From the NCBI GenBank assembly GCA_016744435.1, contig JADGEJ010000038.1, positions 1 to 35,812 of the forward strand: 35,812 nt of DNA. Reading direction: 5' to 3'. Positions 12,933 through 16,915 of the stretch are shown piece after piece. The position numbers were made by a program, and so were the translations under genes. Below the pieces are notes generated by a model. That model worked only from the letters and a program-made list of their open reading frames with translations. It was not told the origin of the DNA and made no database searches. How positions within the stretch are numbered: position 1 is the stretch's first letter; each line of letters begins with the position of its first letter. The stretch comes from Lentibacter sp. GTDB lineage: Bacteria > Pseudomonadota > Alphaproteobacteria > Rhodobacterales > Rhodobacteraceae.

Positions 12933-12949
12933 CATTTGAACCTTATGCC

Positions 12950-12982
12950 AAAAGCGGGCGCACCATAAATGCGCCCGCTTTT
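12950..12982 (+). terminator. thrS intrinsic terminator
   Basis: AAAAGCGGGCGC (12950-12961) pairs perfectly with GCGCCCGCTTTT (12971-12982) around a 9-base loop; the stem ends in TTTT and is followed by GCAATTTTT. It lies 17 bases past the thrS stop. Confidence 0.9.
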
Positions 12983-13101
12983 GCAATTTTTCGGCCAGTT
13001 TCAGCCCCAAAAGTCACGAAAAAGCTGGTTAGCGCTCGCGATCGCGTGAAGCACGCGGCCGTGAATAGCCAGCGCGCCTACTTTCTCTCTAGTGTTGGAT
13101 C

Positions 13102-13116
13102 ACCGCACAACGCGGT
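13102..13116. promoter_or_regulatory. Inverted repeat in the bufferin operon control region
   Basis: ACCGC-N5-GCGGT lies 28 bases upstream of the bufA start. It overlaps the likely promoter zone (TTGGAT at 13095-13100, CGATTT at 13118-13123, 17 bases apart). It could be an operator or part of an extracytoplasmic-function sigma promoter. Homologous operons in Caulobacter are under ECF sigma factor SigF, but I do not see its published box here. Confidence 0.3.
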
Positions 13117-13144
13117 CCGATTTTAACATTCAAGGGAGTTCCCA

Positions 13145-13447
13145 ATGTCTAAGATGATGAAAACAGTTGCCGTAGCAGGCGCAGTTGCAGCCGCCCTCAG
13201 CGCCCACGCCACAACAGCCGTTGCCGCAGAAAAAGAGAAATGCTTCGGTGTTTCCATGGCTGGCAAAAACGATTGTGCAGCAGGCCCAGGCACGACATGC
13301 GCCGGCACCTCAAAGGTTGACTACCAAGGCAATGCCTGGACACTCGTTGACAAAGGCACATGCATGGAAATGGCGCTTCCAGCCGCAGATGACGGTATGA
13401 TGCGCAAAGGCTCGCTTGAAGCTCTTGATCGCGACTTGCCAGCATAA
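13145..13447 (+). CDS. bufA: DUF2282 bufferin-type RiPP precursor (BufA/GigA)
   Basis: The 100-residue product has a signal peptide (residues 1-27, cleavage after AVA) and a short mature part with four cysteines at 33, 44, 52 and 73 in the DUF2282 pattern: EKCFGV, KNDCAAG, TCAGTS and [11 protein letters not shown]2282 proteins are bufferins, ribosomally made peptides whose cysteines are modified by a DUF692/DUF2063 pair. They bind copper in the periplasm and buffer metal stress (shown in Caulobacter; known as gold-induced gigA in Legionella). The signal peptide doubles as leader. GGGAG lies upstream of the ATG. First of four genes; the hairpin just after it probably keeps precursor mRNA in excess. 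Confidence 0.9.
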
Positions 13448-13456
13448 GAACCTCTC

Positions 13457-13482
13457 GCAGGAGGGTCTTTGCGCCCTCCTGC
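13457..13482 (+). terminator. Intercistronic hairpin after bufA (partial terminator or mRNA stabiliser)
   Basis: GCAGGAGGG (13457-13465) pairs perfectly with CCCTCCTGC (13474-13482) around an 8-base loop, 9 bases past the bufA stop. The following sequence is pyrimidine-rich (TTCCCCTTCTC) but lacks a clean T run, so read-through into bufB is expected. Confidence 0.65.
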
Positions 13483-13504
13483 TTCCCCTTCTCGGAGCCT
13501 GTAA

Positions 13505-14365
13505 ATGTTTGACAAAAGCCCCCTTAAGGCTTTGCCTGCCGCCTCTGGCGTGGGCTACAAGCCGCAGCATTTCTCCGAAATAATGTCTGATGTCGCGCAG
13601 GCCATTTGCCCCGTCGGTTGGCTCGAAATTCACGCAGAAAACTATATGGGGCAAGGCGGGCGCCCGCTTGCTCAACTGCGCCACTTGTCCGAACATTTTC
13701 CCATTTCTGTGCACGGTGTCGGCCTGTCTATCGGTGGCGAAGGCCCGCTTGACGCCGATCACCTCGCGCGCCTCAAGCAGCTTTGCGACTGGCTTGAACC
13801 TGCCAGCTTTTCCGAGCATCTGGCTTGGTCGTCACATGAGAGCGCCTTTCTGAACGACCTGCTGCCGCTGCCTTACAACACAGCAACTCTCGCCCGCGTT
13901 GGTGAGCACATTGATACGCTGCAAAACACTCTCGGGCGGCAGATATTGCTTGAAAATCCGTCATCATATCTCGCCTTTGACACATCTGACATGAGCGAGA
14001 CCGACTTCCTCGCCGAGCTCGCGCAGCGCACGGGCTGTGGGCTGCTCTTGGATGTGAACAATGTTTTCGTGTCTGCCACCAATCTGGGCTACAGTCCGCA
14101 AGGCTATATTGACGATTTCCCTCTTGATAAGGTTGGAGAAATTCACCTTGGCGGCCACGATGAAGACATTAATGATGCAGGTCGCCCATTGCTCATTGAC
14201 AGTCATGGCTGCGAAGTCGTTGATCCTGTTTGGGCCCTGCTTGACCACACACTTGCCCGCTCAGGCCCGCGCCCTTTGCTGATCGAATGGGACAACGACG
14301 TGCCGGATTGGCCCGTTCTCGCCGCAGAGGCTAAGCGCGGCGCAGCCGCTCTGGTTGCGCTATGA
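13505..14365 (+). CDS. bufB: DUF692 (MNIO) family bufferin-modifying enzyme BufB
   Basis: DUF692 proteins are multinuclear non-heme iron oxidases with a TIM-barrel fold that modify cysteines in peptide precursors. The 286-residue protein shows the family's motifs in order: GVGYK near residue 15, EIHAENYM (41-48), [37 protein letters not shown] and a C-terminal LIEWD. The His, Glu, Asp and Asn residues in these motifs are the expected iron ligands. It shares a 4-base ATGA overlap with the DUF2063 gene, which encodes the partner that presents the precursor. It acts in the cytoplasm before export of BufA. Substrate assignment to the adjacent bufA follows from the operon. Confidence 0.92.
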
Positions 14366-15117
14366 GCCAACTGCACTTCAAGCAGGCATTGCTTGACCCT
14401 TCGCTGCCAGCTCCCGCGGGCCTTCAAGATGGCCAGGGCAGCCCTGCCGGGCGCCATTTTGATGTCTATCGCAACAACGTAACCGTCTCGCTGATCGAGG
14501 CCTTACAAACTGGCTTTCCAGCCGTTTGCAAGCTGCTTGGCGAGGAGAATTTCACCAACCTCGCGCGCGATTACTTACGCGCTGAGCCGCCCACGTCACC
14601 GGTTATGATGTTCTATGGGAAGGGCTTTGCAGAGTTCGTGCAAGGCTTTGAACCGCTTGCAAAATTTGGCTACCTGCCCGACGTTGCGCGCTTTGAGATC
14701 CTACTGCGCGAGAGCTATCACGCCGCCGACGCTGACGTGATCACACCAGTTGCACTCGGAGCGATAGCACCCGAGCGCCTTGGAGGGGCGAAGTTGGTTT
14801 TGGCGCCCTCTACACGCTTGTTGCAATCGCCGTGGCCCGTGCTGTCATTCTGGCAATACGCATTGAAAGACGGCGCGCCACGGCCGAGCGCGCGGCCTGA
14901 AAGCGTGCTGATTACACGCCCAGAGTTTGACCCAACGCCGCAGTTACTGCCGGTTGGTGCAGGCGGCTTTGTGCGGGCACTCCAGCTTGGTAAAAACTTA
15001 GAGAAGGCCGCAGCTCAAGCCATTGAGAAAAATAAAAACTTCGAGCTATCCACAGCTTTATCCACATTGCTATCGGCACAGGCCATTACGCAAGTATCAC
15101 TTGAGGAAGACACATGA
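14362..15117 (+). CDS. bufC: DUF2063 family partner protein BufC
   Basis: The 251-residue protein carries the N-terminal DUF2063 domain: [40 protein letters not shown] and [21 protein letters not shown], within about residues 30-125. In bufferin and methanobactin-like systems this partner binds the precursor and delivers it to the DUF692 oxidase. The C-terminal half (about 130-250) is more variable. It overlaps the upstream bufB and the downstream DoxX gene by 4 bases each (ATGA), so the three should be made in fixed proportion. No own promoter is visible. Confidence 0.9.
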
Positions 15118-15668
15118 ATACTCTGTTATCGAAGTATAATTCCGTTTCAGGAAGTTTGGCACTCTCTGCGCAAGATGTCCTCCCGACACTGGCGAGGTTC
15201 GTCTTTGGCGCTGTTTTGTTGCTCTACTTTTGGATGTCTGGCCTCACCAAACTTGGCGAGGGCGTGTTTGGCTTCCTCAAACCGTCAACCGGAGCATATG
15301 CGCAAATCTTCCCCAAGGTTATGGAAGCCGTCGTCTACGACACGTCACAGCTCGGCTGGTTTCACTGGGCCGTCGTTGTTGGCGGCACTCTCGCCGAATT
15401 TGTGTTGCCATTGTTGATCGTGATCGGGCTTTTTACCCGCCTCGCCGCCCTCAGCATGATCGGGTTTATCATTGTGCAAAGCCTGACCGACCTGTTCGGC
15501 CATGGCGGGTTTGATCATCCTGACACCCTCGGGGCGTGGTTTGATCACGTCGCAGATGGCGCAATCCTTGACCAACGCTTGCTTTGGGTTTTCCCTTTGT
15601 GCACGCTGGTTATGTTGGGGGGCGGCTGGCTGTCGGTAGATCGCTTGTTTAACCGCTCTAGCAGTTAA
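15114..15668 (+). CDS. DoxX family membrane protein (GigD-like)
   Basis: The 184-residue protein has four predicted membrane segments (about 25-47, 80-105, 110-130 and 152-172) with the DoxX signature ARFVFGAVLLLYFWMSGLTKL and a GGTLAEFVLPLLIVIGLFTR stretch. DoxX proteins are inner-membrane proteins associated with redox and thiol stress. A DoxX gene ends the gig operon in Legionella and many bufferin operons, where its role is not settled; electron transfer for the oxidase or help with metal or thiol handling are both possible. It overlaps bufC by 4 bases and ends 14 bases before an opposing gene. No terminator is evident. Confidence 0.88.
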   Translation: MNTLLSKYNSVSGSLALSAQDVLPTLARFVFGAVLLLYFWMSGLTKLGEGVFGFLKPSTGAYAQIFPKVMEAVVYDTSQLGWFHWAVVVGGTLAEFVLPLLIVIGLFTRLAALSMIGFIIVQSLTDLFGHGGFDHPDTLGAWFDHVADGAILDQRLLWVFPLCTLVMLGGGWLSVDRLFNRSSS

Positions 15669-15682
15669 CACCGCCCAGGCGC

Positions 15683-16003
15683 CTAGCCGAGCAATTCGGC
15701 CTGCACATCTTTGCTCCATCCCAGATAATGCCTGCCCGCGACCTCAATCAGCGGGCGCTTCATAAGGGCAGGATGCGCGCGGATCAAATCCAACGGTGCC
15801 TCAGCGCGCTCACTCTCTGATAGCCCACGCCATGTCGTTGAACGCGTGTTGAGCAAAGCCTCGCCAAACTGCGCAAAGGCAGCCTCAAGCACCGTATCGT
15901 CGATGCCCTGCGCGCGCACATCGACAAGCTCAAATCCGGCCAAAGCCTTCACAGCTTTGCGACATGTGTCGCAGTTTTTCAGTCCATAAATCCGCTGAGC
16001 CAT
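15683..16003 (-). CDS. ArsC/Spx/MgsR-family thioredoxin-fold protein
   Basis: The 106-residue protein has the ArsC/Spx fold: [18 protein letters not shown] with a CxxC-like CDTC pair near residues 11-14, a central helix, and [14 protein letters not shown], where Arg and Pro are conserved in the family. Small single-domain members of this type include glutaredoxin-coupled arsenate reductases and the YffB/Spx-like group; without ars genes nearby, arsenate reduction is unproven, and a YffB-like thiol role seems at least as likely. GGGGG precedes the start; GTG at 16006 is an alternative. It converges on the DoxX gene. Confidence 0.82.
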
Positions 16004-16178
16004 CACTATCCCCCAATTTTTGTTGATTTTTACACAAATCGTGCAATCTTTGACAGGCGATATTCTTTCTTTGAGCCCCGTTCAGCCAGCTGTAGGGCGC
16101 CCTGCTGAAAGTGAGCAAACACTGGCGCATCGAGGCCCGTCAAGCTTGGCCTCACTGAAAGGAACAAGGAGAAACGGC

Positions 16179-16450: not shown

Positions 16451-16735
16451 TTAGTAGCAGCCCTTGGCGCCTTCTTGGCAAGTGTCTTTGTAAACGTGAC
16501 GCACGCGCTTAACACGGCGAATACGCGTCTTCTTTTTCACAGGGCTCGTCATCATGCTGGCGTATGACTGCGACTGGTTGGGTGTGCCACAGCAAATCAC
16601 GCCGCCCATAACGATCGGCGACAGGCCGGTGGGGCAGTTGTTCGCGCCGCCATAAGGATAGGTCGGCATATCCGCCATTGCAGGAGCCGCGATCATGGCA
16701 GCAACGGCCGCTCCGATAAGTGTTTTCAGTTTCAT
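16451..16735 (-). CDS. Small secreted Cys-containing protein of unknown function
   Basis: I do not recognise a family. The 94-residue product has a clear signal peptide (MKLKTLIGAAVAAMIAAPAMA, cleavage after residue 21). The mature region is short: YPYGGANNCPTG, a GGVICCGTPNQ segment, a very basic stretch KKKTRIRRVKRVRHVYK, and DTCQEGAKGCY at the end. Five cysteines leave room for two disulfides plus one free or metal-binding thiol. The basic patch suggests binding to an acidic surface or envelope polymer. AGGGA lies upstream of the chosen ATG; a longer in-frame version starting at 16810 would hide the signal peptide. It shares the csp terminator. Confidence 0.8.
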   Translation of the reverse strand: MKLKTLIGAAVAAMIAAPAMADMPTYPYGGANNCPTGLSPIVMGGVICCGTPNQSQSYASMMTSPVKKKTRIRRVKRVRHVYKDTCQEGAKGCY

Positions 16736-16915
16736 TTTGTGTCCCTCACCCAGAATACCAAATATAGTATGTGCTTTATTACAAGCTACTGATTGGTGAC
16801 AAAAGGTCAATTGAAAAGCTCATAAACGGTTTGTTTTTAGCGCTTTGTGGCTCGATACCCCTCGAATCCGGAAGCAATCAGCGCTCACAAGCCAGTTGCC
16901 GGAGGAATGTGCGGA

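Follow-up and report, generated by a model that had tools for sequence, protein, structure and literature searches.

What controls the bufferin operon bufA-bufB-bufC-doxX of Lentibacter sp. is the question raised by the first 35,812 nucleotides (nt) of contig JADGEJ010000038.1 (assembly GCA_016744435.1), the stretch of DNA analyzed here and termed the window. The encoded proteins are an ordinary Buf1 set that is common in Rhodobacteraceae and that brings no new chemistry; what is new is a lineage-specific control region ahead of bufA. This region contains a tandem-palindrome element, and on the sequence comparisons described below many copies of the operon in the family appear to share this DNA switch, which is distinct from the sigmaF-NrsF system.

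The element was delineated by comparison of 87 related bufA upstream regions, of which L004 and L008 are identical, and follows the pattern [TSACG-N4-YGTGA]-N-[RCACG-N4-YGTGA]-N-T in which two 14-bp palindromes are separated by one base. The copy in the window has one mismatch to TSACGNNNNYGTGANRCACGNNNNYGTGANT, which disappears if R is allowed at the third base; at ≤3 mismatches, 0.04 matches are expected by chance in the window. Allowing ≤5 mismatches of 18, the element was present in 75 of the 87 regions, the window included (74/86 others). Conservation was strongest in the palindrome arms and the −10 motif, and the columns between them were near-random. The spacing between the element and a −10-like TAGnnT motif is fixed: in 64 of 71 distinct regions, a −10-like yTAv began 20–24 nt past the element (shuffled mean 7.8, maximum 20; these shuffles, like those used for the 5′-end and intercistronic stems described below, preserved base composition but not dinucleotides). 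Rfam yielded no credible match, the single hit having an E-value of 0.57 that was far under the gathering score.

Genome-wide scans revealed that the element is associated almost exclusively with buf. Among 149 Rhodobacteraceae genomes (132 of them ≥90% complete), 105 of which encode a multinuclear non-heme iron oxidase (MNIO), the element at ≤2 mismatches produced 63 matches in 57 genomes compared to a single match for the pattern read backward. Fifty-four of these matches, in 50 genomes, and 34 of the 35 matches at ≤1 mismatch lay no more than 2 kb upstream of bufB; as the pattern was derived from related regions and species may recur among the 149 genomes, this positional count is not a fully independent test. 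Within the genus, six of seven genomes possess an MNIO gene, the genome without one being 85% complete, and the element occurred at the buf locus in all six. A class-wide draw of 289 genomes included four from Rhodobacteraceae, among them G000 which provided the sole match, with one mismatch; none of the 285 other alphaproteobacterial genomes matched. Likewise, a class search for DUF2282 matched 47 of 142 genomes, and the 28 loci outside Rhodobacteraceae among the matches listed all scored below −8 on a weight matrix of the element. At one atypical locus, G106:C45, bufB contains one internal stop codon and the element lies 912 bases upstream of the MNIO match, not about 500.

The buf genes of Caulobacter are driven by sigmaF from promoters of the form GTAACC-N16-CGAA with NrsF as negative regulator (PMC3511200), whereas the window has neither and possesses the tandem palindrome instead. 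The 250 nt that precede bufA in the window contain no match to GTAACN-N15-17-CGAA, and no NrsF homolog was found at E ≤ 0.001 in any of the seven genomes of the genus, the source genome included, although the Caulobacter control was positive. The strict sigmaF promoter form was absent from all 87 upstream regions. The form GTAACN-N16-CGAA occurred in six (L028, L030, L033, L043, L048, and L055), none of which has the element; the six other regions that failed the element pattern include two second copies of bufA and, by eye, diverged elements. When the best 80 of 409 relatives from a scan of public genomes were considered, a sigma factor gene and an NrsF homolog stood beside the operon at exactly these six sigmaF-promoter loci, with the proviso that the pair could be missed at L042, L084, and L011, where the sequence ahead of bufB amounts to about 1 kb or less.

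NrsF was encoded by 22 of the 149 Rhodobacteraceae genomes (21 above cut-off), 16 of which also have buf. It was absent from all 50 genomes in which the pattern matched at buf and present in 16 of the 55 other buf genomes (Fisher p = 1.1e-05; with G124 and G135 not counted as NrsF, 0 of 14, p = 5.8e-05), but the relatives are not independent and these p-values therefore overstate the case. Of the 14 strong cases, 12 had NrsF within 2 kb of bufB. Thirty further buf loci were taken from the 149-genome set, and the 29 with enough upstream sequence were classed by score reading: 16 possessed the element (weakly in L152 and L164), six a sigmaF promoter, two NrsF only, and five none of these. Outside Rhodobacteraceae, GTAACN-N15-17-CGAA was found within 300 nt of the chosen start at nine of the 28 DUF2282 loci listed. 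A first-pass annotation of the window had remarked that the operon differs from loci with their own sigma factor. The observation holds and extends beyond an absence, as much of Rhodobacteraceae carries a shared element in the place of the sigmaF promoter of other copies.

Assignment of the operon to the Buf1 bufferins is well supported by profiles, cysteine spacing and synteny. All four proteins exceeded Pfam gathering scores (DUF2282, E = 3.8e-24; MbnB_TglH_ChrH, 1.4e-101; DUF2063, 1.8e-24; DoxX, 4.1e-07), with BufA attaining 84.9 bits against PF10048 (cut-off 22.4). BufB scored 364.3 bits against the NCBIfam equivalog MNIO_BufB (NF050167; cut-off 310) and well under the cut-offs of the HvfB, MbnB, ChrH, and ApyH models. 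Many BufB positions, including the motif EWD, were ≥99% conserved in 85 homologs, and its relatives in the Protein Data Bank include 3bww and 8hci of the DUF692 family and MbnB entries; 8hci is presumably of the TglH type. BufC combines an above-threshold DUF2063 match with a length within the range of the PME type 1 reference, which comprises DUF2063 and a domain of the RRE type (recognition element of ribosomally synthesized and post-translationally modified peptides, RiPPs) in about 250–260 amino acids. The BufA cysteine spacing C-X10-C-X7-C-X20-C was identical in 87 of 87 sequences, the window included, and its N-terminus, with a basic start, a hydrophobic stretch and AVAA ahead of the mature part, has by eye the look of a Sec-type signal peptide. 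The C-terminal tail of BufA (residues about 86–100) lies outside the Pfam DUF2282 stretch, and its pattern was present in 86 of 87 BufA proteins of the family (L025 by eye). The notion that this tail, GSLE-L-RDLP, is peculiar to Rhodobacteraceae was rejected: three of 29 BufA proteins in the class search matched the pattern, one of them (L218) from Rhodobacteraceae, and a similar tail occurs in two of 28 BufA proteins from other families.

The first-pass annotation had described, at 13145–15668, a bufferin-type copper-response operon with the gene order DUF2282-DUF692-DUF2063-DoxX, a 100-residue peptide with four cysteines, ATGA overlaps joining the last three genes, and no adjoining regulator gene. 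Each of these structural features was recovered: the four open reading frames (ORFs) occupy this interval and belong to these families by Pfam, the cysteines are located at the positions in Table 1, and ATGA overlaps are present at bufB/bufC and bufC/doxX whereas bufA and bufB are 57 nt apart. The source genome contains one MNIO and one DUF2282 gene. The bufA-bufB-bufC-doxX order was retained in 79 of the best 80 loci, counting L042 in which bufA is cut by a contig end; L061 stops at a contig end before bufC. The titles of these records are mostly of genera that we take to be members of Rhodobacteraceae. Two loci, L064 and L069, possess two tandem bufA genes ahead of a single bufB. Another, L067, is titled Nocardioides marinus, but its BufA and upstream region are of the Leisingera type and the title is probably wrong.

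Two hairpins accompany the transcript. A stem of ≥5 pairs near the predicted 5′ end was found in 29 of 68 regions (shuffled mean 4.1, maximum 11) with 18 different stem sequences; the position is kept but the sequence varies among relatives, and this retention of pairing makes an RNA structure more likely than a protein site. The version in the window has a folding energy of −12.8 kcal/mol (z −1.8), equaled by eight of 200 shuffles. Counted without restriction, hairpins numbered 44 of 71 versus a mean of 21 and a maximum of 31 in shuffles that preserved dinucleotides. The bufA/bufB interval contained a stem of ≥8 pairs in 56 of 83 distinct regions including the window (shuffled mean 1.0, maximum 4), where it folds with −22.2 kcal/mol (z −2.5; three of 200 shuffles fold as well). 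A hairpin 3′ of the precursor gene is a known means in RiPP operons of holding peptide above enzyme.

The explanation that best fits these data, and one that is probably correct, is a Buf1 bufferin operon in which a putative element-binding activator stands in place of sigmaF-NrsF. By analogy with characterized relatives, BufA would be synthesized with a Sec signal, its central cysteines C44 and C52 would be oxidized in the cytoplasm by BufB and BufC to 5-thiooxazoles, C33 and C73 would form a disulfide, and the mature peptide would sequester copper in the periplasm, with DoxX as a possible membrane accessory; copper as both signal and target likewise would follow from those relatives. A regulator encoded elsewhere would bind the two adjacent palindromes as dimers. 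The palindromes would terminate immediately ahead of the −35 region of a sigma70-type promoter, which this protein may activate under metal or thiol stress, and the hairpin 3′ of bufA may hold precursor mRNA above enzyme mRNA. A more extensive version, in which the operon was rewired in Rhodobacteraceae such that a dedicated regulator with essentially one target, acting on the tandem palindrome abutting the promoter, took over from sigmaF-NrsF, the two modes being mutually exclusive and the two hairpins tuning bufA versus bufBC, is an even proposition.

A number of observations weigh against this interpretation. BufC and DoxX were below the NCBIfam equivalog cut-offs, with sub-threshold HvfC and HvfX matches, and BufA was without any NCBIfam match. 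At ≤2 mismatches, the element was lacking in 55 of the 105 buf genomes. Five of the 29 further loci had no element, sigmaF promoter or NrsF, and may represent a third mode or decayed elements. Judged by matrix score (25.9), genome G135 has an element, and it also yields an NrsF match that is weak, falls short of the cut-off and is interrupted by two stops; G124 (L164) has a very weak element (1.6) and a partial NrsF match; exclusion between element and NrsF is thus imperfect at the weakest level, with the remaining eight NrsF loci among the 29 having element scores below −6. Moreover, no co-regulated copper gene was found in the two of nine off-buf matches that were read, and no experiment on the source genome or on buf of Rhodobacteraceae was found among the openly licensed papers listed.

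Nine of the 63 Rhodobacteraceae matches were away from bufB, of which those in G000:C33 and G118:C7 were read; the other seven had two mismatches. The G000 sites C33:12569 and C33:39025 (≤2 mismatches) were rejected as co-regulated candidates as both fall within unrelated ORFs and resemble chance occurrences; G000 has three more places that match with three mismatches. The sole off-buf element with ≤1 mismatch, at L117 1501–1531 (G118:C7:58314–58344), belongs to a genome in which no MNIO was matched, precedes a gene read by eye as an L,D-transpeptidase, and was retained as a lead. L,D-transpeptidases are a copper-sensitive type of enzyme. No regulator gene was present among the 40 most frequent neighbor clusters listed, the NrsF-like one excepted. 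As the off-buf sites that were read adjoin no known copper gene, a tie between the operon and copper is not supported by these data, and the copper response named in the first-pass annotation has less behind it than its bufferin assignment.

The operon might be a bufferin operon for which the main signal or target is another thiol-reactive stress (chromate, cadmium, gold or hypochlorite) instead of copper. The sites read, none of which placed a copper gene with the element, favor this alternative, and a study of a Haemophilus sigma factor that mentions DoxX reportedly concerns hypochlorite, with what is said to be a link to an MNIO system. The gig promoters respond to gold as well as to copper (PMC5413113), but Caulobacter Buf1 reportedly binds copper and helps cells to grow when copper is in excess (PMC12452194), and the alternative is rather unlikely. 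Similarly doubtful is that the tandem palindrome is a repressor operator from which metal derepresses the operon: metal-responsive repressors often have palindromic dimer sites, but the element precedes the predicted −35 with constant spacing to the −10, which is the usual place of an activator and not over the promoter. That no dedicated protein reads the element, and that it is a leftover or a structural feature kept through block inheritance of the thrS-buf interval, is very improbable as, despite strong thrS synteny and confinement of the element to Rhodobacteraceae in the class-wide draw, conservation is focused on the palindrome arms and −10 with near-random columns between, and pattern matches at buf are absent from NrsF genomes.

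The operon can be set against known systems. In the published model of Buf1 (PMC12452194), modification affects the central pair of cysteines and a disulfide joins the outer pair, and bufferin chemistry and copper binding have been reported (PMC12452194, PMC13097082). Caulobacter vibrioides CC3254-CC3257 and CC2907-CC2905 encode DUF2282, DUF692, DUF2063 and, in the first operon, DoxX in the same order as the window (PMC3511200), in agreement with the first-pass annotation. The parallel drawn there with Legionella requires a caveat: the first gene of that operon was termed DUF2282 in 2017 (PMC5413113), but a later survey uses an L. pneumophila protein as an example of six-cysteine Buf2 (PMC12452194), and the operon may belong to a sister family. 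The gig operon of Cupriavidus metallidurans comprises the same four families as the window (PMC5413113), but is betaproteobacterial, and PMC10304878 describes the function of Gig as unknown. The captophorins fontiphorin, oxazolin, and gonophorin, which have EGKCG repeats, depend on an MNIO and a DUF2063 partner to generate 5-thiooxazoles (PMC13097082), as is predicted for the window, but have repeat precursors in place of DUF2282, and window BufB is under the HvfB cut-off (230 versus 360 bits). MbnB-MbnC of methanobactin includes an MNIO enzyme and, as predicted for the window, yields a copper-binding product (PMC12452194), but BufB scored 53 bits on the MbnB model (cut-off 325), none of the four proteins matched an MbnC model, and the window precursor looks Sec-exported, unlike methanobactin.

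Features of the operon and its control region are collated in Table 1. At least 55 of the best 80 loci have thrS ahead of the operon; neighbor counts are lower bounds, the crude ORF caller sometimes picking antisense frames. The 14-pair stem and T-run 3′ of thrS suggest that buf is its own transcription unit, although four terminator-like sites were found in the region by consensus scan versus 4.2 expected and this site is distinguished by stem length alone. Downstream of doxX are an ArsC-family gene, a cold-shock gene, a small unnamed ORF, and thyX; none of the adjoining genes in the window is a regulator gene. The ArsC-family gene (15683–16006, − strand) is convergent with doxX and stands beside buf in at least 40 of the 80 loci. 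The small protein encoded at 16451–16810 (− strand) contains several cysteines, looks secreted and matched nothing in Pfam; its relatives are downstream of buf in at least seven of the 80 loci.

Table 1. Positions in the window of the buf genes and of predicted control features.
Feature	Position	Strand	Description	Basis
thrS terminator-like hairpin	12949..12983	+	14 pairs then T-run	consensus scan
Tandem-palindrome element	13036..13066	+	putative regulator binding site	pattern comparison of upstream regions
−10-like motif	13090..13095	+	TAGTGT	spacing to element across relatives
Inverted repeat	13102..13116	+	ACCGC-N5-GCGGT, close to predicted mRNA 5′ end	
Shine-Dalgarno-like motif	13132..13138	+	AAGGGAG, ahead of bufA	sequence reading
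bufA	13145..13447	+	DUF2282 (Buf1) precursor, 100 amino acids; C33, C44, C52, C73; signal peptide by eye	
Intercistronic bufA/bufB hairpin	13457..13482	+	GCAGGAGGG-N8-CCCTCCTGC	
bufB	13505..14365	+	MNIO bufferin maturase, 286 amino acids	
bufC	14362..15117	+	DUF2063 partner protein (putative PME type 1), 251 amino acids	
doxX	15114..15668	+	DoxX-family membrane protein, 184 amino acids	

The controls of such operons reported in the cited papers are sigmaF-NrsF in Caulobacter (PMC3511200) and a promoter influenced by RpoS in Legionella (PMC5413113). No paper on the buf operon of Rhodobacteraceae or its promoter was among those listed in searches of the openly licensed literature, and the word 'promoter' does not occur in the available text of PMC12452194 or PMC13097082. 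Bufferins are a recently recognized and widespread class of modified copper-binding peptides, and a further mode of control that is defined to the base provides a bait for the regulator and a direct route to the stress that the operon answers.
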